NCBI GenBank assembly: GCA_029256575.1
Contig: JAQSXR010000003.1
Location: 434,001 to 498,000, forward strand
Source: Clostridiales bacterium
GTDB lineage: Bacteria; Bacillota; Clostridia; Lachnospirales; JAQSXR01
Length of the DNA stretch: 64,000 nt
Direction: 5' to 3'
Shown here: positions 2,825 through 64,000 of the stretch, one piece after another
Layout: every line of letters starts with the position of its first letter
How positions within the stretch are numbered: the stretch's first letter is position 1
Translations under genes and position numbers: made by a program
The notes under the pieces: model-generated
What the model was told of the DNA's origin: nothing
Databases searched by the model: none
The model's input: only the letters and a program-made list of their open reading frames with translations

Positions 2825-3364
2825 TTATCTCTCCGAATAATAACCAATCACACCACAAGCCAATCTCTTTCCTGTATTTCCTGCAGGTTGTGTTCGAAAA
2901 TCATCAGGATTCTGGTGAATAATAACTGCTTTTCCTAATACCTCTTCAGGTGTGAATTTATTTGTAAAAAAAGACATCTGGCAAAATCCGTTGTTAGAGA
3001 AAAGATTCGGAAAATCCCCTGCATGATTACCATGAGGTTGGTTTGTTGGGTTCCAGTGATTTCCTGAAATCTCAAAAGGAGAATCCGAATTTCCTACGCT
3101 ACAATCACCATTCTCGTGAATATGAAATCCAAAAGGCCCAATCGGAGCATGACCATTTCTTGCTGGTTGATAATCTGGCAGCCCATATACAATAACCGTT
3201 ACATCCGTACCATCTTCTACTGGATCAAAATATACAATACCTTCAATCTCTGGTGCTAACGGACCACCTATAATAGATGCTGCAACGACTACTTCTTCTG
3301 ATCTATTTTCATTTCTAGTATTGTTTGGGAGTTCTTGGTTTACTGTTCGTGCATCGTAAAACAT
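2825..3364 (-). CDS. Cu/Zn superoxide dismutase, without signal peptide
   Basis: Predicted copper/zinc superoxide dismutase, converting superoxide to oxygen and hydrogen peroxide. All hallmarks are visible in order: the copper ligands in GFHIHENGDC, the bridging histidine in GNHWNP, zinc ligands in HGNHAGDFPNL, a further copper histidine in AVIIHQNP, the active-site arginine in NTGKRLACGVI, and the two cysteines of the usual disulfide (GDC, LACG). A frame is open from a TTG at 3439, overlapping the upstream gene. The ATG at 3364 has an AGAGATG-like ribosome site and gives a normal 179-residue protein. There is no signal peptide or lipobox, unlike most bacterial SodC proteins, so the product should be cytoplasmic. 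It lies 61 nt after the SLH-YDG gene and shares its terminator, so the two are probably cotranscribed. The enzyme class is uncommon in strict anaerobes. Confidence 0.9.
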   Translation of the reverse strand: MFYDARTVNQELPNNTRNENRSEEVVVAASIIGGPLAPEIEGIVYFDPVEDGTDVTVIVYGLPDYQPARNGHAPIGPFGFHIHENGDCSVGNSDSPFEISGNHWNPTNQPHGNHAGDFPNLFSNNGFCQMSFFTNKFTPEEVLGKAVIIHQNPDDFRTQPAGNTGKRLACGVIGYYSER

Positions 3365-3425
3365 GGAATCACATCTCTTTAAGTTTTGTATATAGTATTC
3401 AAGGTTGGCAAAAGTGTTCTCTTCA

Positions 3426-6400
3426 TCATACAGTCTCAAATGTACTGAAAAATACTCCTTTATTCAATCCATCAATGACTAGATTATTTCCTACTAGAAT
3501 GAATTTGTCCGTTCCATCTGCCTTAACGAAAGCTACAACATCTGTCATTGCTATTTGAAGGTTGATTGCAGTCACTAATTCACTTATATTATTATATTTT
3601 TGATTTAGTAATATGGTAGCTGTATTTACCCCATCACTGATTGTAAAGGTTACATTTGCAGATTTGTTTTCAATTACTCCTGTTACTTTCTCGTTACTAT
3701 CAAAGAAGAATGCCCAATCTTTTCCCCCTACTTGAATCGAAGATCCAGCGTCAGCTGAAAATGTCCCAATTGTTACTCTGGTACCAGATCCATATGCATA
3801 CATAGTTCTATTCATAATACCAGCTGCTCCGCCCTTGTTGTCATAAAACCACTGCTGAATATAGCTTTCGATAGCAGAACCTACTGCTAAAGCAGGAGTA
3901 GTCGCATATTCATTTAGTGGTATATTCCACCATAGATCTACAGGTATAATATTCCCTGCCTGATCTGTTATTGTAAAGTATTTTCTATTCGCACCACTAA
4001 AGTCTGATGATGCTATTTCTTTACTTATTTGTTTTACTTGATTATATTGATATTTAGTTGCAAAATCTAGATTAGCAATGCTTTTGCTACTCAATGATTC
4101 TATATATTCCGGTATTATTACTTCTGTTGCAGGTCCTACCTTATAATATGGTGTGGCTGCATACCTTACAACATAAGTTCCATTAAGCAGGTTCGTTATT
4201 TCTGCGCCAGTTACAGGTATCCAGTCTGTAGATGTTGACAGTTTGTATTCCATCTTATCCGTTGTTCCTGTAATTTTTCCATCATTGTTATCTATCGTAG
4301 TTGGTATTAAGCCAATTAAACCAGTTGGATTAACTTGCTCGAGTTTCGTTATTTCTCCCAAAGCAAGTGAGTAACTCTCAGGTCTAATATAATTAACCGC
4401 ATCTTTTCCTCCGAGTATAAATTCAACTGTTATTGTTTTTCCTGTTCCGGGTTCAGGATTATCATAAGATCCTATTCCAGTCGGTATTACATCATCTCCA
4501 CTCATTACCCCAGTTACCGTTACAAAATCTACATCAGCTGTGGTATTTCCATCATATGGTTTTATATGTTTAAACATTACACTTAACATTTCCAACTGTA
4601 ATGCCACTATTTCACCCACCATCACTTGATGGTTTACAGGCTTAATATAGTTTGAAGAATTCACTCCTGAGATATGATATTCCACTGTAATGATTTTGTT
4701 TTTACCTACAACTGCATTATCATAGGTTGCAACTCCACTTACTGTTACATCTTCACCTAGATATACTCCAATTATTTCACCTACTGTAACGCTTGCTGCG
4801 GTACTTCTATCATATATTTTAGATGTCGTTATCGTTGGAGCATCTATTGTTAACTGTAATGCCAATATTTCACCAGTATTCACTATATAATCTGCTGGTT
4901 TGATATAGTTTCCTGCATTAACTCCTGCGAGTGTATATTCTACCGTTATTTTTTTACCGGTTCCTACAGCGGTCGTATCATAGTTTGCGATTGCACTTAC
5001 TGTTACATCCTCACCACTAACTACGCCTGCTAATTCTCCTGCTGAAGCGAAAGCATCGTTTCCAGCGTCATAGGTTTTCGATGTTGTCAAAGTCGGATTA
5101 GCCACTGTTAATTGTATCTTTGTAATTTCTCCAGAATTATCTGTGTAATTCTCTGGTTTAATATAGTTAATTGCATCCTCTCCGACTAAACTATATTCTA
5201 TCGTTATAGCTTTGTCTTTTCCTGCTTGATTCGTATCATAGGTTGCAATATAACTTATTGTTACATCATCTCCTTGAATTACTCCACCTAATTCTCCAAT
5301 AGTAACTCCGGCTGAGGTTCCTCCATCATATGGTTTCGTTGTCTGCAATATTGGAGCTGATATTGTTAACTGTACTGCCTTTATTTCACCGGTATTCACT
5401 ATATAATCTGCTGGTTTAATATAGTTGCCTGCATTAACTCCTGCGAGTGTGTATTGCACCGTTATTTTTTTACCAGTTCCTACTACATCAGTATCATAGT
5501 TTGCGATTGCGCTTACTGTTACATCCTCACCACTAACTACGCCTGATAATTTCCCCACTGAAACGAAAGCATCGTTTCTAGCGTCATAGGTTTTCGATGT
5601 TGTCAAAGTCGGATTGGTCACTGTTAATTGTATCTTTGTAATTTCTCCAGAATTATCTGTGTAATTCCCTGGTTTAATATAGTTAATTGCATCCTCTCCG
5701 GCTAAACTATATTCTATAGTTATAGTTTTGTCTTTTCCTGCATGATTCGTATCATAGGTTGCAATATAACTTATTGTTACATCATCTCCTTGAATTACTC
5801 CACCTAATTCTCCAGTTATAACTCCAGCTGAGGTTCCACCATCATATGGTTTCGTTGTCTGCAACATTGGAGCATCTATTGTTAACTGTAATGCCAATAT
5901 TTCACCCGTATTCACTATATAATCTTCTGGTTTGATATAGTTGCCTGCATTTTCTCCTGCGAGTGTATATTCTACCGTTATTTTTTTACCGGTTCCTACT
6001 ACATTAGTATCATAGTTTGCGATTGCACTTACTGTTACATCTTCACCACTAACTACGCCTGCTAATTCTCCTGCTGAAACGAAAGCACCGATTCCAGCGT
6101 CATAGGTTTTCGATGTTGTCAAAGTCGGATCAGCCACTGTTAATTGTATCTTTGTAATTTCTCCAGAATTATCTGTGTAATTCTCTGGTTTAATATAGTT
6201 AATTGCATCCTCTCCTGCTAAACTATATTCTATAGTTATAGTTTTGTCTTTTCCTGCATGATTCGTATCATAGGTTGCAATAGAAGTTATTGTTACATCA
6301 TCTCCTTGAATTACTCCACCTAATTCTCCAATAGTAACTCCAGCTGAGGTTCCTCCATCATATGGTTTCGTTGTCTGTAATATTGGAGCTGATATTGTTA

Positions 6401-7835
6401 ACTGTAATGCCTTTATTTCTCCCGTTTTCACAACATAATCTGCTGGCTTGATATATTTTCCTGCATCCGCTCCAGAAATTTGATATGTTACCGTAATTGT
6501 TTTGTTTATTCCTACAATCGCATTGTCATAGGTTGCAACTGCACTTATAAGAACATCATGCCCACTTGCTACTCCCTGCAATTTACCAATCTTAACTGCA
6601 GCAGTACGGCTTCCATCATAAGTCTTTAATATTGTGAGAGTTGGATCTGAGATTGATAACGTAACGATTCGATTACTATAATCGGCGTCCTCTACGATTC
6701 CATTTCCAGACCAATTTACCGTAGCGCTTGTTCCAGCACCTAAAGTAACATTTCCAGCAGTAACACCACTTGTACCCTTACCTGCTATAACTTTTGTGAA
6801 AGGTACCGTAACCTTAATATTATTGGTATTTGCATAAACAGAGCCCACTTGACCTTCTCCACGAACCGTTGTTCCTTCACCATTAATAGTAATTTGAGGT
6901 ATGTTAGCTCCTTTGTTTGCAATAATAGTTGCATTCATCGCATCAATTACCAGGTTTGATACGGTGCCACTTACCACTAGCGTTGTATTTATTGCTGTCA
7001 CTAGAACATCATTTACATTTGAGTTATTCAATATTGTGATTTTAGAGCCTCCACGGATAATAATTCTACCAGTTACAGTAACTCCATCCAGAATAACCTC
7101 TCCATCCCCTACTCCATCACCAATAATTAAATCGCCTTCTATCGTAAGATTTTTGAGAGTTACATTCGCAACATTAATTATTACACTCTTCGTATAATTG
7201 CTTGTATATGTCCCTGCGTTTCTAATATAATTTCGTGCAATATTATACATTATTTGAGCAAACTCAGCTCTCGTAATGAAATTCTTTGGATTAATTTTTC
7301 CATCTGTACCTGAAATATACCCTTCAGAAATTAAGGATGCCACTCCATCAACTGCCCATGGACTTATGGAATCTTTATCTGTGAATTTATTAAGCCCATG
7401 TATGGAACCTCCGGTTAGCTTGAACGCTCGGGAAAGAACAGCAAAAGCTTCTTCACGTGTAATATTTCTATTTGGATATAGTCTCCCGTCACTCCCTTCA
7501 AAGAGTTCCATTTGTACTGCTGTTGCCATAGCGTCATAGTACCAATCCGTATTGGATACATCCACATAAGCGCTAAGAGATCCTTTTTTTGTTGCACCAA
7601 ACGCTCGTACCAAAACAGATGCTAACTGCGCACGAGTTAAATTTTCTTTTGGCATTATCTTACCATTATCTCCACTAAGCAATCCATTCTCGATTGCATG
7701 CTCAATTGCTTCCGTAGACCAATCATTGGGTAAGTCTGTAAACATTAGCCCATTTTCAGCCAATACCGGTGTATGTAACTGAGTAAATATCATAGTTACT
7801 AGTAAGGCTATACTAATTATTCTCTTCTTAATCAT
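3426..7835 (-). CDS. S-layer-anchored surface protein with three SLH domains and nine YDG repeats
   Basis: A 1469-residue exported protein. Residues 1-27 form a signal peptide (KKRIISIALLVTMIFTQ... VLA). Residues ~30-205 hold three SLH domains (FTDLPNDWSTEAI, YVDVSNTDWYYDAM, FTDKDSISPWA) that bind pyruvylated secondary cell-wall polymer. Residues ~215-350 form a beta-rich, helix-like stretch (NVTLKNLTIEGDLIIGDG) also found in the SLH-CAP protein at 44288-46129. Residues ~395-1165 are nine YDG-type repeats of ~86 residues, alternating between two subtypes (KPYDGGTSAGV and KTYDAG). An Ig-like segment and a unique C-terminal domain follow. The start has a GAGAGGG ribosome site. It is probably an adhesin or structural stalk. 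It lies between the polysaccharide control operon and the superoxide dismutase gene. Confidence 0.92.
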   Translation of the reverse strand: MIKKRIISIALLVTMIFTQLHTPVLAENGLMFTDLPNDWSTEAIEHAIENGLLSGDNGKIMPKENLTRAQLASVLVRAFGATKKGSLSAYVDVSNTDWYYDAMATAVQMELFEGSDGRLYPNRNITREEAFAVLSRAFKLTGGSIHGLNKFTDKDSISPWAVDGVASLISEGYISGTDGKINPKNFITRAEFAQIMYNIARNYIRNAGTYTSNYTKSVIINVANVTLKNLTIEGDLIIGDGVGDGEVILDGVTVTGRIIIRGGSKITILNNSNVNDVLVTAINTTLVVSGTVSNLVIDAMNATIIANKGANIPQITINGEGTTVRGEGQVGSVYANTNNIKVTVPFTKVIAGKGTSGVTAGNVTLGAGTSATVNWSGNGIVEDADYSNRIVTLSISDPTLTILKTYDGSRTAAVKIGKLQGVASGHDVLISAVATYDNAIVGINKTITVTYQISGADAGKYIKPADYVVKTGEIKALQLTISAPILQTTKPYDGGTSAGVTIGELGGVIQGDDVTITSIATYDTNHAGKDKTITIEYSLAGEDAINYIKPENYTDNSGEITKIQLTVADPTLTTSKTYDAGIGAFVSAGELAGVVSGEDVTVSAIANYDTNVVGTGKKITVEYTLAGENAGNYIKPEDYIVNTGEILALQLTIDAPMLQTTKPYDGGTSAGVITGELGGVIQGDDVTISYIATYDTNHAGKDKTITIEYSLAGEDAINYIKPGNYTDNSGEITKIQLTVTNPTLTTSKTYDARNDAFVSVGKLSGVVSGEDVTVSAIANYDTDVVGTGKKITVQYTLAGVNAGNYIKPADYIVNTGEIKAVQLTISAPILQTTKPYDGGTSAGVTIGELGGVIQGDDVTISYIATYDTNQAGKDKAITIEYSLVGEDAINYIKPENYTDNSGEITKIQLTVANPTLTTSKTYDAGNDAFASAGELAGVVSGEDVTVSAIANYDTTAVGTGKKITVEYTLAGVNAGNYIKPADYIVNTGEILALQLTIDAPTITTSKIYDRSTAASVTVGEIIGVYLGEDVTVSGVATYDNAVVGKNKIITVEYHISGVNSSNYIKPVNHQVMVGEIVALQLEMLSVMFKHIKPYDGNTTADVDFVTVTGVMSGDDVIPTGIGSYDNPEPGTGKTITVEFILGGKDAVNYIRPESYSLALGEITKLEQVNPTGLIGLIPTTIDNNDGKITGTTDKMEYKLSTSTDWIPVTGAEITNLLNGTYVVRYAATPYYKVGPATEVIIPEYIESLSSKSIANLDFATKYQYNQVKQISKEIASSDFSGANRKYFTITDQAGNIIPVDLWWNIPLNEYATTPALAVGSAIESYIQQWFYDNKGGAAGIMNRTMYAYGSGTRVTIGTFSADAGSSIQVGGKDWAFFFDSNEKVTGVIENKSANVTFTISDGVNTATILLNQKYNNISELVTAINLQIAMTDVVAFVKADGTDKFILVGNNLVIDGLNKGVFFSTFETV
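4340..6660 (-). repeat. Tandem YDG-domain repeats; three near-identical 516-bp double units
   Basis: The nine YDG domains are encoded by ~258-bp units. Domains 2+3, 4+5 and 6+7 form three double units of 172 codons (516 bp) whose DNA is nearly identical: the segment reading ggtttaatatagttaattg recurs near 5150, 5670 and 6185. Such homogeneity indicates recent tandem duplication or gene conversion, and makes copy number prone to change. Confidence 0.88.
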
Positions 7836-7957
7836 TATCCCTCTCTCCTTTATATAAAATTAGTAGGTATATGCAAAATAACACGTCCCTTGTAAATATA
7901 TACAACTCTCTTTCTTTGTATGCCATATAATGGCAGCATGTATTCTATAATTCGAAA

Positions 7958-7986
7958 TAAAAAAAGCTCCAACCTTAGTTGGAGCA
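7958..7986 (-). terminator. Terminator of the polysaccharide control operon
   Basis: On the minus strand GCTCCAAC pairs with GTTGGAGC around TAAG, followed by TTTTTTTATTT. It lies downstream of the last Wzz-like gene and upstream of the SLH-YDG gene. Confidence 0.88.
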
Positions 7987-8090: not shown

Positions 8091-9410
8091 CTACTTAATC
8101 TTTTTCTTTCCAAACACAATTCCTCCAACAAGTCCAATAAACCCAAACCCTCCCATAAATACGAGAAGCTTTAATTTACTAACTCCTATAAGACCAATTG
8201 CTCCGACAAGATTAATCGTATTATCAACCTGTGATGTAAGGTATTCATTACTTAATTTATTATAGGATGCATATAAATTATTCATCTTTTCTTCAATGCT
8301 TGCAATCTGCAATTCTACCTGTTTCGTAGCCCAGTCAACTTGAGAAGCATCAATCGTACTCCCTTTTATTTTAGCTACTTCTGCTTGGTAATACTTCTTT
8401 TGCGTATTCGCCAATTCTGCTGCTACATTAGCCTCAACTGCCTTTTGAACAACAAATGAATAGTAACTATTCTTTGCTGCTGAGGATAATAGTGAATTCA
8501 TAAAAGTTTGAGATTTGAGTACTTCTGTAATTGCATTTGCATCTGTATTTGTGTCTGCTGATACCACTGAAATCATATCCACAGCTACATCTGATAAATT
8601 CGTATTTTTCCGAACTTCATAATCATACATTTTAATCTTATATTCAAATATACTTAGAAGTTTCTCTTTTTCTTTTGAAATATTATAAATATTTATAAGT
8701 GAAGATACTCCCACTAAATCAACACTACTTAGATTTTCAGCTTTGTTCGCGATATCTTCGAATGACATATTATCATCACTGCCTCTATAATATCCAACTC
8801 GACTTGCCATATTATCTGCAGCAGATGTTAATAAATCCAATCTACTTTCCACTACCTTAATTGCATCTAAATAATCATATTCTGATATCTTCTTATCAAG
8901 TGTTACGAGACTGCCTATATTACCATTACCAAATTTAGTTGTAAAACTATTCGTATACTCGCTAACAATTGCCTCTAGAATTCGCTTCGCATCTTTTTTT
9001 GATATTCCAGATATGTCTGGTTCATTGATACTTATGTTAAATTCATTCGGAACATATTCATAAATTGGTGTGAAACTTGCTTGTGTAGTTGCTTTTAACT
9101 GCGCTGCCATCTCTTCTGGTATAATTGGTGTAACATATACCTGACGATTCAGCTCTTCAGCAGTAATATCCAATTCCAACTTATCAATAACCGTTTCTAA
9201 TATTGTAGTATCTTTAATCTGGTTCTTTCTAAATCTACTTCCATCTGGGTTATTACCAGATTCTAATCCGTCAAAAGTCAATTGAAGCGTTGCTACTGTT
9301 TCTCTACCATTAAATATTGAAATAAAGCAAAACAAAGAACCCACTACTAAGGATATAGCAAGACAAATTGCAATAAATTTCATATTATAGTTTACTAATA
9401 TCTTTTTCAT
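8091..9410 (-). CDS. Wzz-like polysaccharide co-polymerase, second tandem paralogue
   Basis: A 439-residue membrane protein with a transmembrane helix near residues 10-32, a long extracytoplasmic part rich in coiled-coil-forming helices, and a second transmembrane helix near 405-425 followed by GKKKIK. This is the Wzz/GumC arrangement, in which such proteins oligomerise around the polymerase and set chain length. It has no kinase domain. It is homologous to the gene immediately upstream (shared LTFDGLESGNNPDGS / LDFDSLSEGNNPDDT and VTPIIPEE / VTPYIPYE). The upstream stop and this start overlap as TAATG, so translation is probably coupled. It is the last gene of the operon begun at 13082. It might instead serve in surface-protein or polymer anchoring. 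Confidence 0.75.
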   Translation of the reverse strand: MKKILVNYNMKFIAICLAISLVVGSLFCFISIFNGRETVATLQLTFDGLESGNNPDGSRFRKNQIKDTTILETVIDKLELDITAEELNRQVYVTPIIPEEMAAQLKATTQASFTPIYEYVPNEFNISINEPDISGISKKDAKRILEAIVSEYTNSFTTKFGNGNIGSLVTLDKKISEYDYLDAIKVVESRLDLLTSAADNMASRVGYYRGSDDNMSFEDIANKAENLSSVDLVGVSSLINIYNISKEKEKLLSIFEYKIKMYDYEVRKNTNLSDVAVDMISVVSADTNTDANAITEVLKSQTFMNSLLSSAAKNSYYSFVVQKAVEANVAAELANTQKKYYQAEVAKIKGSTIDASQVDWATKQVELQIASIEEKMNNLYASYNKLSNEYLTSQVDNTINLVGAIGLIGVSKLKLLVFMGGFGFIGLVGGIVFGKKKIK

Positions 9411-10816
9411 TATTTCAACCTCCTTGTCTTATCAACAACAGGTTCTGCTGTCCAATATTCCTTCATTAATGCAATGAAACATCCAAACATAAGTCCTAGT
9501 ATTACCCCTACGATTGGAAGCAATAAGAAAGTCTTTATACTTCTTGATGCACTTGGTTGAAGTGTAATCTTAATACTATCATTAATTGAAGTTTCTCTGT
9601 AATCCTTATTTAACACATTAAACGTATTAAATGTACTCACGATAAATTCATGCATTAAATTAATATCGGTTTCAACTTCTTTCTTAGCCCAAGCCAAATC
9701 ATCTGCTTGTACTAATCCATTCGTAAACTTTGCCACCTCTTGTTGGTAGTAAAGTTTATCTGCTAAGTAATTCGCTGCCAACTCACCAGACTCAGTTGCT
9801 TGCTTTACTAAACCGTTATAATAATCATCTCCAGAAGCTGCTCCTAATAACTTTGTCAATAGTTCTTCTTCCGATGAAAGTTCTGTATCGTCAATTATAA
9901 TACTCTCTGGTTTATCAATCGTTGCGATTATCGCTTTTACAGAAGTATTTTCCGCTAATGCTTTTTGGTATTCTAGTTCTGCATTCTTTATAAGATATTC
10001 ATATCTCTTAATAAGCTTTTGTTCATCTTTTGTAAGATTGTTCATATTCGTCAAAGCTTCTGCCCTGCTATAATCAACTTCTAACACAAGACTAACAGCA
10101 TCAGAAAGCTCTCGAAAGGTTAGTCCATTTATCCCTCTAAAACTAGGTGCTTCTTCGCTTTTAAGATCTGCGTTTTCTTTTAATTGTTCTAGGTCTGATT
10201 TAATAACTTGAAGTGCTTCATCATAATCATAAGATGCCAAATCATCGGTAATTGAAATATTTCCGAAGTAAACATCTTTACCGTATTTATCAATGAATTG
10301 AGTGCGATATGTACTGATAATTGATTCTAGTATTACCGCTGCATCTTTTTCATTAATACTACTACGCCAGTCGGTGTTAATTGATAGGATGTACTCGGTT
10401 GGGTAGAAGATTACCTCTTCTGTATAGGTTCCGGCGGCTTTTTGTTCATATAATTTGGTGATTTCATATGGGATGTATGGGGTAACACGGATCATTTTTC
10501 GAAGATCCGTCATATTTATCTTACTCGTTAAATTGTTCGTTTCAATAACTGACTTAATAATACTTGGAGAAATAACTTGGTCAAACGTAAATACCGTGTC
10601 ATCAGGATTATTCCCCTCTGATAATGAATCGAAATCTAATACGATACGTGTCGTTGTAGTTGTAACTGGAGCTTTCATAACGACTGCAAATATAATAGCT
10701 ATGATTGTTATAATAGCTGTTATTATAAAAATTAATCTTTTCTGATTTAATACCATTAGAACAAGTTCTTTGATTGAAATTTCCTCATTATATTGTTGAT
10801 TAAGTTGTTGTTCCAT
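9410..10816 (-). CDS. Wzz-like polysaccharide co-polymerase, first tandem paralogue
   Basis: A 468-residue protein with a cytoplasmic start (MEQQLNQQYNEEISIKELV), a transmembrane helix near 33-53, a large extracytoplasmic helical region and a second transmembrane helix near 430-452 (FLLLPIVGVILGLMFGC). The N-terminal ISIKEL...NQKRLI pattern matches the Wzz/chain-length-determinant domain. It differs from the 252-residue Wzz protein of the same operon in its long periplasm-like insertion and pairs with the paralogue that follows. It sits 38 nt after the BY-kinase gene. The family role is polymer length control or export; that this copy does so is inference from topology and operon position. 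Confidence 0.8.
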   Translation of the reverse strand: MEQQLNQQYNEEISIKELVLMVLNQKRLIFIITAIITIIAIIFAVVMKAPVTTTTTRIVLDFDSLSEGNNPDDTVFTFDQVISPSIIKSVIETNNLTSKINMTDLRKMIRVTPYIPYEITKLYEQKAAGTYTEEVIFYPTEYILSINTDWRSSINEKDAAVILESIISTYRTQFIDKYGKDVYFGNISITDDLASYDYDEALQVIKSDLEQLKENADLKSEEAPSFRGINGLTFRELSDAVSLVLEVDYSRAEALTNMNNLTKDEQKLIKRYEYLIKNAELEYQKALAENTSVKAIIATIDKPESIIIDDTELSSEEELLTKLLGAASGDDYYNGLVKQATESGELAANYLADKLYYQQEVAKFTNGLVQADDLAWAKKEVETDINLMHEFIVSTFNTFNVLNKDYRETSINDSIKITLQPSASRSIKTFLLLPIVGVILGLMFGCFIALMKEYWTAEPVVDKTRRLK

Positions 10817-10854: not shown

Positions 10855-11544
10855 TTATTTTGATTCAGCATAAGCGGTATAACTTTTGCCATAATACTTA
10901 CTATAACCACTTTTACTCATGTCTACCTTATTAAGTACTGCACCAAGAATTCTACATCCTGATTTATCCAACTGCTCTTTTACCTTCTGGGCGAATTTGT
11001 AGCTTATGTTATTAGCCTCTATTACAAGTATCATTCCATCACAGAGAGTGGCAACGACTGCCCCGTCTATTATACTACCAAGAGGTGGAGTATCAATCAG
11101 AATATAGTCATATCTTTGACTAAGCGATTGAATTAGATCCGCAAACATAGCTCCTCCAAGAAGTTCAGATGGATTCGGTGGTACCGGTCCAGCAAACATC
11201 ATATCTAGATTATCAATACTAGAATGATAGATTGTTTCGCTTTCTGTATTCAAACCAGCAAGATAATGAGTGAGTCCCTTTATTGGTTTATCGATTCGAT
11301 ATCTACCAATTAATACGGACTTACGTAAGTCTGCATCTATAAGTATAACCTTATTTCCTGCATCTGACAAGGCCTCTGCAAGATGCATTGTAACACTACT
11401 TTTTCCCTCGTTTGGTATACAACTGGTTAACCCAATAACCTTAATATTTTTTCCACTAAACATAATATTGCTTCTTAGTGTGTTATATGCTTCTTTGCCT
11501 TGGAAATCAAGTTCTTTTAATTTATTAATATTTACGCTATTCAT
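10855..11544 (-). CDS. BY-kinase, CpsD-type tyrosine autokinase
   Basis: A 229-residue cytoplasmic ATP-dependent protein-tyrosine kinase that controls capsule or exopolysaccharide assembly. Visible are Walker A (SCIPNEGKSS), Walker A' (VILIDADLRKS), Walker B (YILIDTPP) and a C-terminal tyrosine cluster (GYSKYYGKSYTAY) for autophosphorylation. The length is normal for the separate-kinase Firmicute type. It follows its likely activator, the 252-residue Wzz protein, by 20 nt. The PHP phosphatase that would dephosphorylate it is encoded upstream, giving the classic cpsB-cpsC-cpsD order. A second, aberrant copy lies at 1757-2635. Confidence 0.93.
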   Translation of the reverse strand: MNSVNINKLKELDFQGKEAYNTLRSNIMFSGKNIKVIGLTSCIPNEGKSSVTMHLAEALSDAGNKVILIDADLRKSVLIGRYRIDKPIKGLTHYLAGLNTESETIYHSSIDNLDMMFAGPVPPNPSELLGGAMFADLIQSLSQRYDYILIDTPPLGSIIDGAVVATLCDGMILVIEANNISYKFAQKVKEQLDKSGCRILGAVLNKVDMSKSGYSKYYGKSYTAYAESK

Positions 11545-11564: not shown

Positions 11565-12323
11565 CTACGTAGTTGCTTTATTTTTCTTAGATATTTTCTT
11601 TGGTTTTGTGTCTTTATCTTTCATATTATTTAAGTGTTTTTGAATTGGAATTGAACTTAAGACACTTACCCCTAAGTATCGTTCGATGTCCTCTGGGGTC
11701 TTGATTGTATCATCCAACATGGTAATAACTAATATTATAGCTCCCGCAATAAGAACCCCTAGTATTCCACCTAATACCGTATTACGTTTCACATTTGGTG
11801 AAACTGGGTTTTCTGGAAGATTTGCTTCTTCCACTACATTTACTTCTTTAATATCCATTACATTACTAATATGTATGGAAGAGGCTTCTCTTACCGCATC
11901 TGCTATCTCTTTTGCTAAATATGGGTCTGAAAACTCTATCGTAATATTCAATACTCTTGTATTTGAAGGATTATACACGGTGATCATATTTACCAAATCA
12001 TTGTGTTTCATATCCAATTCAAGTTCCTGTATTACCTTCTCCGTCACAGGTCTGCTCTTAATTAATGTCATATAATCATTCGTTAACTGACTACTTGTCT
12101 GTAAATCACTATAGGTAACTGCTGTAGAACTGTCTTGCTTGCTCATTACATATATCTGGGTTGTTGATTGATACATAGGTGTTATTGAATATGACGATAC
12201 GAAATATGCAACCGCTGCAAGTAAGACTCCAGCCAATACAATAATCCATGATTTTCGTAATAATACACCCATTATTTCTTTAAGATTAATATTAATTTCT
12301 TTATTTGTATCTAATTGTTCCAT
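11565..12323 (-). CDS. CpsC/YveK-type chain-length regulator and BY-kinase activator
   Basis: A 252-residue membrane protein with transmembrane helices near residues 27-47 and 178-202 enclosing an extracellular Wzz domain (STTQIYVMSKQDSS...LQTSSQLTNDYMTLI). A proline-rich PENPVSPN segment sits before the second helix, as in Wzz proteins, and a short basic cytoplasmic tail follows (KPKKISKKNKATT). In Firmicutes this tail contacts and activates the BY-kinase encoded next. It is preceded at 33 nt by the phosphatase gene and followed at 20 nt by the kinase. Confidence 0.92.
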   Translation of the reverse strand: MEQLDTNKEININLKEIMGVLLRKSWIIVLAGVLLAAVAYFVSSYSITPMYQSTTQIYVMSKQDSSTAVTYSDLQTSSQLTNDYMTLIKSRPVTEKVIQELELDMKHNDLVNMITVYNPSNTRVLNITIEFSDPYLAKEIADAVREASSIHISNVMDIKEVNVVEEANLPENPVSPNVKRNTVLGGILGVLIAGAIILVITMLDDTIKTPEDIERYLGVSVLSSIPIQKHLNNMKDKDTKPKKISKKNKATT

Positions 12324-12356: not shown

Positions 12357-13082
12357 CTATATATATTGATTATTTAGTATTTTACTTGGATTATCAAATA
12401 AAAGTTCTTTGCTATAAGCCTCTCCATATTTCTTACTAATATATTCAATTGTTTTCTTAAGTCTTGGTGCTCTCGTTCCATCACTATGTGCATCCGTCGC
12501 AACTAAATGTATCCAGTTGTACTTTAATAAAATCTTTGCTACCTTTTTACTCGTTCTTCCCATCTCACCAATTATACTCATAGCGTTCACTTGAATGTAG
12601 ACGCCCATATCAATCAAGTCTTTAATTTGGTTCAAGTCTTTCGTAATATTCTCATAGCGCTCAACGTGCGCCAATATTGGTATGTATCCTTCAAATATAA
12701 ATTGTTGCAAACCATTCTTGATATATGAATATTCTGCCACTGGTGAAAATTCTACCAACACATACCTTGTGCCTGCCATAGTTGGAATAAGTTTCTCTTT
12801 TATTAGTTCTACCACTTCATGGCTATAGTAGATTTCACTTCCTATTAGAATATTTATCTGTGGGATATCTTCCCCCATCTCACAGTTTACCTTTGCTATA
12901 CAATCTTCCATCATCTGTTTTGTCGTGGTAATATTGCCTTCTCGAAAGTGAGGAGTTGCTATTATGGTGCGAATCCCATCTGAATACGCAATCTTAAGCA
13001 TACTCATGGTTTGCTCCATACTCCTTGAACCATCGTCTAACTGTGGTAAAATATGACTATGTATATCAATATATCCATCCAT
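12357..13082 (-). CDS. PHP-family tyrosine-protein phosphatase (CpsB/YwqE type)
   Basis: Metal-dependent phosphatase of the PHP superfamily that dephosphorylates BY-kinases. Metal-binding motifs are visible: DIHSHILPQLDDG at the N-terminus, ATPHF, the central histidine of ILAHVERY, and VATDAHSDGTR near the end. A frame is open six codons further upstream (13100), but AGGGGGAG lies 6 nt before the ATG at 13082, so that start was chosen, giving 241 residues. It is the first gene of the operon. Its leader carries a consensus promoter and a terminator-like hairpin that ends only 19 nt before the start codon. Confidence 0.93.
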   Translation of the reverse strand: MDGYIDIHSHILPQLDDGSRSMEQTMSMLKIAYSDGIRTIIATPHFREGNITTTKQMMEDCIAKVNCEMGEDIPQINILIGSEIYYSHEVVELIKEKLIPTMAGTRYVLVEFSPVAEYSYIKNGLQQFIFEGYIPILAHVERYENITKDLNQIKDLIDMGVYIQVNAMSIIGEMGRTSKKVAKILLKYNWIHLVATDAHSDGTRAPRLKKTIEYISKKYGEAYSKELLFDNPSKILNNQYI

Positions 13083-13100
13083 AATGCTCCCCCTATGCAA

Positions 13101-13181
13101 ATAAAAAAGAGCTTTTCTACGTTAGAGATTAAAATAAAAAGATGCGCTAGTCATCCTTTACTCTAACTATAATAGAAGCTC
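13101..13181 (-). promoter_or_regulatory. Leader terminator (attenuator candidate) of the polysaccharide control operon
   Basis: In the transcript, the arm at 13181-13161 pairs with the arm at 13127-13109 (GAGCTTCTA...TTAGAG with CTCTAACGTAGAAAAGCTC). A run of six U follows (13108-13103). A small GATGACTAGCGCATC hairpin sits in the loop. It lies ~40 nt downstream of the consensus promoter and ends just before the ribosome site of the first gene, which is the geometry of transcription attenuation. Confidence 0.65.
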
Positions 13182-13229
13182 AATTATGTTTACTTAATAT
13201 TATTAAAACCTTGAATACTTATCCATATT

Positions 13230-13258
13230 ATTATAACTTTCTATCGGGAGTGTGTCAA
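13230..13258 (-). promoter_or_regulatory. Consensus sigma-A promoter of the polysaccharide control operon
   Basis: A perfect TTGACA (13258-13253), a 17-nt spacer and a perfect TATAAT (13235-13230) on the minus strand. The predicted start near 13222 gives a ~140-nt untranslated leader containing the hairpin at 13101-13181. Confidence 0.85.
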
Positions 13259-13627
13259 CAAAATATGACAGTAATATGAATGAATCACTATAAAGAATTA
13301 TATCTTGACTAGAAGTCATATTATCTATGTTTACAAGTAATCTTGGTATCTATACTTTCAAGTAAATCATATTTTTTTCTTTTTCAATTACATCTCTACT
13401 GTTATTTGTATCCCTTTTTTAATTTTAATTCTTAACTTTTATAGATAGCTGTATATTTCATTTGTTCTCTGCTAACTTCAAAGTATCCAAGCACATTAAA
13501 CCTCAATCTCAACTTCCACCCTAACTGCCTCACAGCTTTAGCTCTGCTGGAGTTTGATTTATTGGTGGGTGTTGAGATATCCAGTGTACCGTTTCAATAC
13601 CTGATACTAGTGCATCAATATAATCAA
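13259..13627. other. Intergenic stretch with an imperfect palindrome and possible coding remnants
   Basis: This is the gap between the biosynthesis cluster and the control operon. It contains an imperfect inverted repeat, 13506-13578 (ATCTCAAC with GTTGAGAT, extended inward by CCACC/GGTGG), without a T run. On the minus strand directly after the HAD gene, a short open stretch without a start (13533-13611, ending AELKL and a stop) and a second frame ending near 13430 look like coding tails, but I cannot assign a family. No intact gene is seen. Confidence 0.4.
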
Positions 13628-14428
13628 TCAATCAATCAACATCTTATAAAGTTGTCCAATGTTTTCAAACACATAATCAGGTTTAAACTCAGTACTCACA
13701 AGATGTTCAATTTTCGTTTCACCAGTCAAGACAACACCTGTAGATACACCCGCATTAATACCACATGCAATATCTGTATATAATCTATCTCCAATCACTA
13801 TAGTTTCTTCTTTTGAAAATCCATTAGCTTCCATTGCTAATTCAACCATTTTCGGATTTGGCTTACCTATATATACTGGCTTCTTCGCTGTTGCAGTTTC
13901 AATCATATTGCAAATAGATCCACAATCCGGTATGAATCCAAATGATGTAGGGCAAAGCAAGTCGGGATTTGTTGCCAAATACTCTACATCTCTTGTAAGT
14001 ATTCTACATGCATCATCAAGTTTAGAATATTTCAATTCGGTATCAAATCCTACTAGTAAGCAATCAATATCATTTGTATACTCGTCTACAATATTTAACC
14101 CATCCTCTATTAATTCTTGTTTGAAAGATTCTGTACCAAGAACATATATTTTATTATATTTACTATGTTGTCTAAGATGAAGTGATGTTGCTTGTGAAGA
14201 GGTCATGAAATTTGATGAGTCTACTTCAATAGACAGTTTTTTTAGTTTTTCTATATAATCATTAATACTTTTTGAAGAGTTATTTGTTAAAAAAACATAT
14301 TTCCCACCAATTGACTTAACATAATTCAGAAAATCTAAACTGTATTCAAATAGTTCACCGTCCAGATATATTGTTCCATCCATATCTAATAAAAAAAATT
14401 TCTTATTTTTTATATTGTATTTAGTCAT
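13628..14428 (-). CDS. HAD-IIA (NagD-like) protein, candidate step in CDP-glycerol supply
   Basis: A 266-residue haloacid dehalogenase-superfamily protein with motif I DMDGT, motif II TNNSS, the motif III lysine in YIGKPNPKM and motif IV IGDRLYTDIACG, plus the large C2-type cap typical of NagD/4-nitrophenylphosphatase proteins. It normally hydrolyses small phosphate esters. It overlaps the nucleotidyltransferase gene by 8 nt and is the last gene of the biosynthesis cluster. In pneumococcal serotype 23F a NagD-like protein, Gtp3, acts with a reductase (Gtp1) and a cytidylyltransferase (Gtp2) to make CDP-2-glycerol. The same three families are adjacent here, so that role is a specific hypothesis. 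Confidence 0.85.
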   Translation of the reverse strand: MTKYNIKNKKFFLLDMDGTIYLDGELFEYSLDFLNYVKSIGGKYVFLTNNSSKSINDYIEKLKKLSIEVDSSNFMTSSQATSLHLRQHSKYNKIYVLGTESFKQELIEDGLNIVDEYTNDIDCLLVGFDTELKYSKLDDACRILTRDVEYLATNPDLLCPTSFGFIPDCGSICNMIETATAKKPVYIGKPNPKMVELAMEANGFSKEETIVIGDRLYTDIACGINAGVSTGVVLTGETKIEHLVSTEFKPDYVFENIGQLYKMLID

Positions 14429-32141: not shown

Positions 32142-33759
32142 CTACACTACCTGCTTAAATCCTTCTTCATTTTTATAGGTATTTACTACCTCTGGCATAA
32201 ATTCAACAATTTCTTTTGCCTTGAAATTCTTAGCCATTTTATCCAGTGTATGTATTTTATCTTTCAACCACTGTTCATCAATGTCCTCTTGACCAACTAT
32301 AAAGATTTTCTCATCTACTGTCGACTCAAGATCCTCTGCCTCTAGCAGTAATTCCTCATATAACTTTTCTCCAGGTCGAAGCCCTGTGTATTCTATTCTT
32401 ATATCCTTATCTACTTCAAATCCGGATAACACGATCATTTTCTTTGCAAGCTCACTTATCTTTACAGGCTCTCCCATATCTAAGATAAATAGTTCACCAC
32501 CACTGGTGATTCCCCCAGCTTTGAGTACTAACATACAAGCTTCTGGTATTGTCATAAAGTACCTTATGATATCTTTATGCGTTACCGTTACTGGTCCGCC
32601 TTCTTTTATTTGTTTCTTAAAGAGTGGGACTACAGACCCATTTGAACCGAGAACATTTCCAAATCGAACTGCACAGAACTTGGTCTTACTCTTTCGATTC
32701 ATAACATTATCCACTCCATATTTATCCGCCATCTGCGCGGTATTATAAGTACCCATTACATTATTCTTTATCGCTTCGTCTGGATTCGTTTCCATGAGTG
32801 GTACATGCTTATGAGCCGCTGCGTGAAATATGATCTGTGGCTTGTGCTTCTTAAATATGTATTCTAACTTATTGAGATCTCGCACCGATGCGATTTCTAT
32901 TTGAATATCTAGGGTATCTCCGTAATGTCTTATCAATTCTTGTTGTATGTTATAGGCATTATTTTCATAAATATCAAGAACGACTAAAGTTTTAGGATGT
33001 ATACTTGCCACTTGTCTACAGATTTCCGAGCCGATTGACCCGCCGCCACCAGTTACCAATACTACTTTATTTTCCAAGTATTTGTAATTCTCTTTTTTTA
33101 AGACTACTTGATCTCTACCTAATAAATCTTCTATCTCAATTTTACGAATTTTATTTGCTATGTTTTCGTTTGGTATATCTCCATATTGTTCCGGTATTAT
33201 ATTGACTTCACATCCTGTTGCGATACAATCTTCGATTATTTTATTCTTCTCATTAATACTATCAAAGGTCTTAGCAACTAATATTACTTGTATCTCTTTT
33301 TCCTTACATACACGAATCACGTTATCGTTCGTATCGATTACCGGTATATTCTTAATATTTCTACCAAGTTTTGAGGGATTATCCGAAAGCATACCAACGA
33401 TACTATAATTATAGTTTTTGAAGAATTTTAATTCTTCGATTACTCTGGTAGCTAGGAACCCTAAACAATAAATATTCAAGTCGAACTAAGTTTTCAGGAA
33501 AATAATAATTTATTAATACAAAAATAGATGTCATAATAGATACTGCTACTACCGTGGCTTTCATGCATTTCACGAAATCTCTGGAATCAGCGTATCGCCA
33601 TACAACATCATAAACTTTAAAAATATGAAAAATTACAACTGTCACCAGATAGTATGCAATGATTGGTAGCCATACATATACCGTATTTGCTTTATCTGTT
33701 AAAAAATAATATATTAAGCATGTTAGTCCATAGTATCTCCCTCTTGTTCCCTAAATCAT
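32142..33759 (-). pseudogene. Decayed FlaA1/CapD-type nucleoside-diphosphate-sugar 4,6-dehydratase
   Basis: Homologous to the membrane-anchored CapD/PglF dehydratases, but with several lesions. The probable start (ATG 33759) is followed by an in-frame TAG at codon 3. The membrane domain is too short (about two helices, then FKVYDVVWRYADSRDF). Near 33480 the frame shifts by one base, so the rest (MNIYCLGFLATRVIEEL..., 32142-33479) is read in another frame, formally from a TTG. Inside that frame KYGVDNVM runs directly into NRKSKTKF, so the ~28 residues that normally hold the catalytic STDKAVNPTN-MGATKR segment are missing. The NAD loop (TGGGGSIGSEICRQV) and the end (VRFGNVLGSNGSV) remain. The product cannot be an active dehydratase. 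It is the first gene of the biosynthesis cluster, just behind its promoter. Confidence 0.88.
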
Positions 33760-33805
33760 GTTCCCACTACCAAGTATATTTCTCCCCCGAAAAACATACT
33801 TACAC

Positions 33806-42967: not shown

Positions 42968-42996
42968 ATTGTAACATTTTCCAACAAAACCTGCAA
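42968..42996 (-). promoter_or_regulatory. Promoter of the flavodiiron protein gene
   Basis: TTGCAG (42996-42991), 17 nt, TACAAT (42973-42968) on the minus strand. The first unit of a repeat cluster begins 3 bp upstream of the -35. Confidence 0.6.
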
Positions 42997-42998
42997 GA

Positions 42999-43097
42999 TG
43001 ATACAATGGGGACGGTTCTTTTTGTATCAAAGTGATACAGGGGGGACGGTTCTTTTTGTATCAAAGTGATACAAAAAGAACCGTCCCCATTGTATTA
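42999..43097. repeat. REP-like repeat cluster A: three 31-bp units
   Basis: Units lie at 42999-43029 (+), 43033-43063 (+) and 43067-43097 (-), each separated by the 3-nt spacer AAG. A unit runs from TGATACAA through GGGGACGGTTC and a T run to TTGTATCA, with ends that are reverse complements. Units 2 and 3 make a perfect 22-bp inverted repeat with a 3-nt loop (43042-43088). The last bases of unit 3 supply the stop codon of the beta-lactamase-like remnant. Confidence 0.93.
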
Positions 43098-46316: not shown

Positions 46317-46467
46317 TGATACAATGGGGACGGTTCTTTTTGTATCACTTTGATACAATAGGGACGGTGCTCATAGTAAATAAAAAAGAAGATGATACAA
46401 TAGGGACGGTTCTTTTTGTATCACTTTGATACAATAGGGACGGTGCTCATGAACAAAAAAGAAGATG
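46317..46467. repeat. REP-like repeat cluster B: a 76-bp tandem duplication with full and variant units
   Basis: Full units lie at 46317-46347 and 46393-46423 (+). Each is followed by a CTT spacer and a shortened variant ending GGGACGGTGCTCAT (46351-46374, 46427-46450). The whole block, including an AAAAAAGAAGATGA tail, is repeated at a 76-bp period. It lies immediately downstream of the RAYT gene, in the opposite orientation to cluster C on its other side. Confidence 0.92.
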
Positions 46468-46488
46468 ACATTATAATCATCTTCTTCT
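46454..46488 (-). terminator. Terminator of the RAYT gene
   Basis: AGAAGATGA and TCATCTTCT form a 9-bp stem around an 8-nt loop, followed by TTTTTT on the minus strand, just after the frameshifted C-terminal part of the transposase. Confidence 0.75.
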
Positions 46489-46502
46489 GTTTCAATACTG
46501 TC

Positions 46503-47173
46503 TTATTTATTGATTAATCTTATAATTCTCAATCTATTTATTCCTGTTATTTTGGCCATTCGAGTTATCCCAACTTTATTGATCGTTTGGATATTTTTTA
46601 GTATTTCTGATAATCTAGTATTAGAAAAGGAATTAATCTCCTCTATATTTATCCCATGCATATCTTGAATTATGGTTATTAGTTCATCATCTGAAACAAT
46701 ATTAGCGGCCCTAAAATATCTGTTATCCCTCTGCCATAAAGATAATCACTATAACTACTCCATACATAGTTTTCCATACTTTTGCTTATGTTGTCTTTAA
46801 TTGGATTCATATGAATATATCTCATCGCGGCAAATAAATATCTCTCGTCCTCAATAGCTTTACTTTTAAATCTATCTTGAAAAAGATGCCCAACTCTAGA
46901 ATATTTCCTATTGTACCATTGTGCATAAGACCCTGCTATGCGTTTTAAAATAGATTCCAAATCAATGGAATTCACCTTTAAGATTAAGTGAATATGATTA
47001 TTCATCAGACAATATGAATATATTTTATAATCAGATTCTTTCTTGTAGCGCCCTAAATAGTAAATGAATCTGCTAAAATCCTCTTCATCATTAAAAATAA
47101 CTTGTTTATTAATTCCACGTAACATAATATGATAAATTCCACTAGAACTTTTCTCTCTAGCTCCCCTCGGCAT
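46503..47173 (-). pseudogene. REP-associated tyrosine transposase (RAYT, IS200-like Y1 family), frameshifted
   Basis: HUH single-strand transposase related to IS200/IS605 TnpA but of the single-copy RAYT type. The first part (46679-47173) has MPRGAREKSSSGIYHIMLRGIN, the HUH motif in CLMNNHIHLIL, and the catalytic tyrosine region IAGSYAQWYNRKY. The start at 47173 follows GGGGGTG. After TDILG the frame goes to a premature stop at 46679, but a shift of one base near 46705 restores a helix-turn-helix C-terminus (NIVSDDELITIIQDMHG...VGITRMAKITGINRLRIIR) ending at 46503, as in intact RAYTs. The protein is therefore either inactivated or made by frameshifting. It is flanked by repeat clusters B and C in opposite orientation, the usual RAYT/REP arrangement. 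Confidence 0.88.
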
Positions 47174-47510
47174 ACCATAATCACCCCCATATCGCCATAT
47201 TAACACAACATATATAGATTGTCAAAGGCAATTGTTAGACATATTCAAATTAATAACAATTATAGTTTTATCATTGTCTGTATTCGAAGTTATTTTGTAT
47301 TAATTTGTATTTATTTATCGTTATTTGTCGACAGCACCAAGCATTTTACAATAGAATTGTAGTTTCGTAAGGTTTGAAATTATTTTTTACAATGTAATAC
47401 CTAATTTCTACACTATTTTGCACAATCAAAATAATAAGTGTCCCATTGTATCATTCTTAAGTTAACTATTAGTCCCGTCTCTTTTTATCATCCTTGTGTT
47501 ACCTAGCAGC
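47174..47510. other. Intergenic stretch upstream of the RAYT gene
   Basis: AT-rich, with no gene seen. A degenerate copy of the repeat unit may lie near 47468-47500 (AGTCCCGTCTCTTTTTATCA). Confidence 0.35.
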
Positions 47511-47596
47511 ATCGTCCCTACTGTATCATAGTGATACAATAAGAACCGTCCCTACTGTATCAAAGTGATACAAAAAGAACCGTCCCCATTGTATCA
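47511..47596. repeat. REP-like repeat cluster C: two and a half inverted units
   Basis: A partial unit (47511-47528) and full units at 47532-47562 and 47566-47596, all in minus orientation, with 3-nt spacers TAG and AAG and hence a 34-bp period. It lies between the RAYT gene and cinA, 14 bp after the cinA stop. Confidence 0.92.
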
Positions 47597-63853: not shown

Positions 63854-63874
63854 AATTTTCACAAGAAATACAAG

Positions 63875-64000
63875 TGATACAATGGGGACGGTTCTTTTTG
63901 TATCACTTTGATACATTGGGGACGGTTCTTTTTGTATCACTTTGATACAAAAAGAACCGTCCCCATTGTTCACTTTCGAACAAAAAGAACCGTCCCCATT
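63875..64000. repeat. REP-like repeat cluster D, runs off the right edge
   Basis: Units lie at 63875-63905 (+), 63909-63939 (+), 63943-63972 (-) and 63976-64000 (-, cut by the window), with CTT spacers. Units 2 and 3 form a perfect 22-bp inverted repeat with a 3-nt loop (63918-63964). At the junction of units 3 and 4 the usual ends are changed to TTGTTC and GAACAA, which are still complementary. Confidence 0.93.

Follow-up and report, generated by a model that had tools for sequence, protein, structure and literature searches.

Results

The cpsB locus and its surroundings

The window, a stretch of 64,000 nt on a clostridial contig of 515,606 bases, contains on its minus strand a cpsBCD-like operon and, directly ahead of it, a short leader region. 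The features of the locus, in the direction of transcription, are as follows.

13628-14428, minus strand: HAD-IIA hydrolase, last gene of an upstream polysaccharide cluster on the same strand
13230-13258, minus strand: sigma-A promoter TTGACA-17-TATAAT (TTGACA 13258-13253, TATAAT 13235-13230)
13109-13181, minus strand: composite terminator stem, -19.6 kcal/mol, beginning at +44, with about 43 nt of predicted transcript before it
13137-13159, minus strand: inner hairpin AAAGGATG-ACTAGCG-CATCTTTT in the loop of the large stem
13122-13154, minus strand: possible 10-codon leader ORF, MTSASFYFNL, with a poorly spaced ribosome-binding site
13099-13108, minus strand: U tract TTTTTTATTT, immediately 3′ of the stem, beginning at +117
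13086-13094, minus strand: cpsB ribosome-binding site AGGGGGAGC
12357-13082, minus strand: cpsB-like gene (CpsB_CapC), first of the operon (Pfam PF19567, E 3.7e-95; NCBIfam Cps4B below cut-off)
11565-12323, minus strand: cpsC-like chain-length determinant (Wzz), from Pfam/NCBIfam scans
10855-11544, minus strand: cpsD-like tyrosine autokinase (TIGR01007 above cut-off)
9410-10816, minus strand: second Wzz-like protein (PF02706)
8091-9410, minus strand: 439-aa ORF, presumed last gene of the operon, with neither a Pfam nor an NCBIfam match
7956-7985, minus strand: clean operon-end terminator, GCTCCAACTAAGGTTGGAGC followed by a T run

The upstream minus-strand cluster, which ends at 13628, encodes capD-like, Wzy-/Wzx-like, rmlA-, rmlC-, rmlB- and rmlD-like proteins, a sugar transferase, glycosyltransferases, a CDP-glycerol glycerophosphotransferase, a nucleotidyltransferase and the HAD hydrolase (we assigned rml, wzx and capD from our own reading of the Pfam matches). 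The terminator scan found no minus-strand terminator-like site between 14811 and the cpsB leader hairpin, and this hairpin is therefore the first stop for transcripts of the upstream cluster; it may also, or only, serve to block their read-through. The DNA between the two gene groups (13259-13627) was checked for a degraded gene, and translation in three frames gave only short open stretches; elsewhere in the genome it has two weak partial matches only, of 33 and 50 bases. A repeat search found the cpsB leader to be single-copy in its own genome.

Several further observations were made in the window. The HAD hydrolase gene has its stop codon within a short tetranucleotide repeat of about four GATT units (minus strand, 13622-13642). 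A frameshift, either real or an assembly error, seems to affect the capD-like gene (32142-33479), whose apparent membrane-spanning N-terminal part is open in another frame upstream (region 33380-33760); a candidate second leader terminator at 33526, ahead of the coding sequence at 33479, was rejected on finding that it appears to lie inside this frameshifted coding sequence. Directly behind the cps operon is the gene of an S-layer-homology protein of 1469 aa that has nine YDG matches (3426-7835), and a few kb behind the operon, at 1757-2671 and 2825-3439, lie genes for a second cpsD-like tyrosine kinase and for a protein resembling Cu/Zn superoxide dismutase. The repeat GGGGACGGTTCTT occurs at 42989-43080, 46326-47575 and 63873-63990, with 16 matches on one strand of the contig and 18 on the other; it is also found near a Y1 transposase-like gene (46679-47206), and the two resemble a REP-type repeat accompanied by its transposase.

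A consensus promoter followed by an interrupted terminator stem

The exact-consensus promoter described in an earlier, sequence-only reading of this DNA is present on the minus strand at 13258-13230. It is the one 12/12 sigma-A match in the window, where a first-order Markov model predicts about 0.18 for spacers of 16-18. Across the contig we counted 15 such promoters against about 1.5 expected, or roughly one per 34 kb, most of them, as judged by eye, just ahead of genes; the excess indicates that the class is real, yet also that a perfect promoter is not rare or special here. The cpsB transcript is predicted to start at about 13223-13224, and positions are counted with +1 at 13224. From the hairpin to cpsB, the promoter scan showed no minus-strand site that resembles a promoter at 9/12 or more.

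A stem with a U run about 40 nt into the transcript had likewise been claimed, and this agrees with the stem at +44 and the tract TTTTTTATTT behind it. The stem is built of a foot (GAGCTT/AAGCTC), a middle part (CTA/TAG) and an upper part (GTTAGAG, 13167-13161, with CTCTAAC, 13127-13121). A simple pattern scan for loops of 3-8 nt missed it because its loop contains the second hairpin. When the 142-nt leader was shuffled with its dinucleotides preserved, a terminator site as good arose once in 2000 trials; folding of the 130-nt leader by itself stands out less from shuffles (z -1.66; equalled in 11 of 200). The U tract is on the minus strand only, and the terminator scan lists no plus-strand terminator-like site at the leader. 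The foot of the stem comprises only about 6 bp and is followed by a 2-nt bulge and an internal loop; these interruptions and the short foot suggest that termination may be weak, and the earlier statement that the stem would stop most polymerases goes beyond what the sequence shows.

The start codon of cpsB is probably the ATG at 13082, which is preceded by AGGGGGAGC, and the TTG at 13100 given in the ORF list is probably not a real start. The end of the U tract lies 16 nt, and the end of its first six U residues 20 nt, before this ATG; the latter distance is close to the 19 nt given in the sequence-only reading.

Promoter and terminator are features of the sequence, and from them we infer that transcription terminates in the leader, how efficiently it does so, and that it does so conditionally. 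Conditional control of termination is plausible, judging from the order promoter, terminator, gene.

Occurrence of the layout in the genome and among relatives

We scanned the leaders of 264 genes on the contig, all of them preceded by 60 nt or more of intergenic DNA; the genes were called by a simple longest-ORF rule instead of a gene finder. In 32 of these leaders a terminator-like site lies close to the gene start, and six of the 32 also have a promoter of at least 10/12. Only at cpsB is that promoter a 12/12 match, and it lies 48 nt before the stem. Two T-box leaders are present on the same contig, among the 7 of 23 fetched stretches that were given to Rfam.

cpsB matches were obtained in 23 of 96 relatives' genomes, the best at 45% identity; no genome of the same family was among the 96. 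A first scan of GTDB contigs for cpsB relatives found nothing, and a second found 80, the best being 55% identical (Anaerocolumna sedimenticola). The leader scan covered 106 loci, namely all 80 GTDB loci and 26 of the 28 matches from the 96-genome search (the window itself, L002, and a partial match, L028, were left out); several of these loci probably represent one organism present in both sets (for example L003 and L060) and the 106 are therefore not independent. At least 150 nt of upstream DNA was available for 103 of them, and the start of the match was used as an approximate start codon. Ten of the 106 loci have a terminator-like site with an energy of -9 kcal/mol or better at 8-80 nt ahead of the match, and three of these ten (L034, L043 and L056) have a promoter of at least 9/12. 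A 10/12 promoter with a compact stem occurs in Parasporobacterium paucivorans (L034) only. There, TTGACT-17-TATCAT is followed after 67 nt by a stem enclosing a hairpin, with a U tract 44 nt before cpsB; the inner hairpin carries a UUCG loop. The P. paucivorans leader and our cpsB leader have no detectable sequence similarity (their score is reached in 569 of 1000 shuffles), which limits the relationship to convergence on a layout at most. We found no homologous leader DNA in the plasmid collection. The layout is thus convincing in one of the 106 relatives' loci and is not conserved, which speaks against attenuation.

Search for a controlling factor

The sequence-only reading saw no antiterminator gene in the window, and Pfam scans of the main genes of the window likewise found none. 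It named LoaP and RNA elements as examples of such control, and suggested a search for LoaP/NusG paralogues. In the genome, whose assembly is about 95% complete, NusG has a single match, a housekeeping gene between secE and rplK (neighbors named from their translations). This protein scores 96.6 bits with the LoaP model against a cut-off of 125, and NusG and LoaP model searches thus detected no LoaP above cut-off in a genome of which about 5% may be missing. The LoaP of Catenibacillus scindens, which served as a positive control, scores 174 bits; it is also the only LoaP above cut-off among the nine relatives' genomes searched (L054 was left out), and the model found none in P. paucivorans. 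Our leader contains no hairpin with a UNCG loop.

Searched against 4227 Rfam families up to E 10, the leader has no match other than TeloSII_ncR49, a plus-strand hit (E 1.6) that was rejected as due to chance; a known RNA element thus finds no support here. Nor did the list of helices and the stepwise folds reveal a strong antiterminator helix competing with the terminator before it forms, and no alternative fold was found. The part of the leader 5′ of the stem is A/U-rich and 43 nt long.

Two other kinds of antiterminator protein are each encoded once in the genome. The BglG-type protein (CAT_RBD) adjoins an HPr-like gene and the ANTAR protein a glutamine-synthetase-like gene (both neighbors named by eye from translations); sited beside other genes, both were set aside as controllers of cpsB. 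ANTAR proteins target two hairpins whose hexaloops have the form A..G.., and the cpsB leader has no ANTAR hexaloop hairpin.

Discussion

The arrangement of a promoter and then a terminator ahead of cpsB is of an already familiar kind. The perfect promoter, a terminator site beyond what shuffling yields, and the uniqueness of their pairing on the contig make a leader attenuator likely, and we lean, with some reserve, towards the reading that the cpsB leader is an attenuator whose read-through is probably raised conditionally by a factor other than LoaP. From the sequence features the following model can be proposed. A strong sigma-A promoter would start the cpsB-cpsC-cpsD transcript, and about 117 nt further on RNA polymerase would run into an intrinsic terminator, whose long stem is interrupted and encloses a smaller hairpin. 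Some of the polymerases, or most of them, would stop there to leave a leader RNA of about 120 nt, and the remainder would read through to the ribosome-binding site directly behind the terminator. Read-through would probably be raised by the non-LoaP factor, be it an RNA-binding protein, a particular state of the elongation factors (for instance in the balance of NusA and NusG) or leader translation, and the hairpin would at the same time halt polymerases coming from the polysaccharide cluster upstream. The cps genes would thus probably be held back until polymerase is let through. The comparable layout in P. paucivorans also speaks for this reading, whereas the interrupted stem with its short foot, and the failure to detect an antitermination factor or an alternative fold, speak against it. 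Of the attenuation proposed in the sequence-only reading, the promoter and leader terminator are supported and the named mechanism is not.

The main rival, which is simpler and was absent from the earlier reading, is passive insulation: the hairpin would end the upstream polysaccharide operon and act as a fixed down-tuner that holds cpsB at a constant level. Consistent with this, there is no other minus-strand terminator-like site in 14811-13108 behind a same-strand cluster that ends at 13628, and neither an antiterminator nor a switch fold came to light. However, the cpsB promoter lies upstream and not downstream of the hairpin, so that an insulator in this place would also cut off the transcripts that the operon itself starts; for insulation alone, placing the promoter ahead of the terminator would make little sense. 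In P. paucivorans, moreover, the same layout lies behind a gene for a GGDEF protein and not behind a polysaccharide gene. On these grounds we regard passive insulation as possible, if on the unlikely side. The nested architecture, recurring with other sequence in P. paucivorans, where LoaP was also not found, is the basis for a more specific and doubtful proposal: in some Lachnospiraceae-like Clostridia, cpsBCD-type operons might be antiterminated independently of LoaP by a protein that lands on the loop hairpin and holds the large stem open.

Control might instead lie with a ribosome on the 10-codon ORF (13154-13122), which would cover the upper stem and lift termination. The ORF begins inside the inner hairpin, and its stop codon falls in the 3′ arm of the upper stem, but it bears no sign of translation, the AAAGG before its ATG lacking any spacing and the peptide having no run rich in a single amino acid; P. 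paucivorans has a 10-codon leader ORF as well (read by eye), but this is unrelated in sequence and sited before its stem. We therefore hold ribosome-controlled attenuation to be improbable. About as improbable is a small-molecule RNA switch, in which the 3′ arm of the terminator would be shared with a helix that hides the ribosome-binding site. GCUCUUUUU, from the terminator 3′ arm and U tract, can indeed pair with AGGGGGAGC over 9 bp including G-U, and the read-through RNA, folded to minimum energy, contains this helix. The pairing is not significant on its own, however, as 136 of 2000 shuffles of the tail give one equally good, and the lack of an Rfam family and of a strong competing helix in the short 5′ part also speak against such a switch. 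Antitermination of the operon by LoaP or another NusG paralogue we consider most improbable of all. LoaP promotes read-through of leader terminators, and genes for specialised NusG proteins often lie beside envelope-polysaccharide operons, according to PMC12691694 and PMC7819879, but the genome's sole NusG is the housekeeping one and falls below the LoaP cut-off, in an assembly lacking perhaps 5% of the genome.

LoaP is the best-known antiterminator for surface-polysaccharide operons in Bacillota. The LoaP leaders of dfn and mln in Bacillus velezensis resemble the present case in having a promoter, a leader and an intrinsic terminator before a long operon for a costly product, whereas the cpsB genome has no detected LoaP and the cpsB leader no UNCG-loop hairpin. 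According to PMC12691694, that hairpin is the LoaP target in Bacillus and the dfn leader measures 417 nt; the cpsB leader has about 142 nt. Termination in exopolysaccharide operons is also controlled by the EAR element of Bacillales. EAR, however, lies inside the eps operons, and the cpsB leader has no Rfam match. T-box and riboswitch leaders share the leader terminator shortly before the start codon, but the cpsB leader matches none of the Rfam families and its 43 nt before the stem offer little room for a sensor. BglG/LicT-type and ANTAR attenuators are similar as protein-controlled leader terminators; in contrast, the proteins of these types in the present genome are encoded beside HPr-like and glutamine-synthetase-like genes, and the ANTAR hexaloop hairpin is missing from the leader.

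A passive hairpin would be no more than an ordinary insulating terminator, of little importance. If termination is conditional, surface polysaccharide would be controlled at the cpsB leader in a clostridial lineage that has been little studied and has no detected LoaP.
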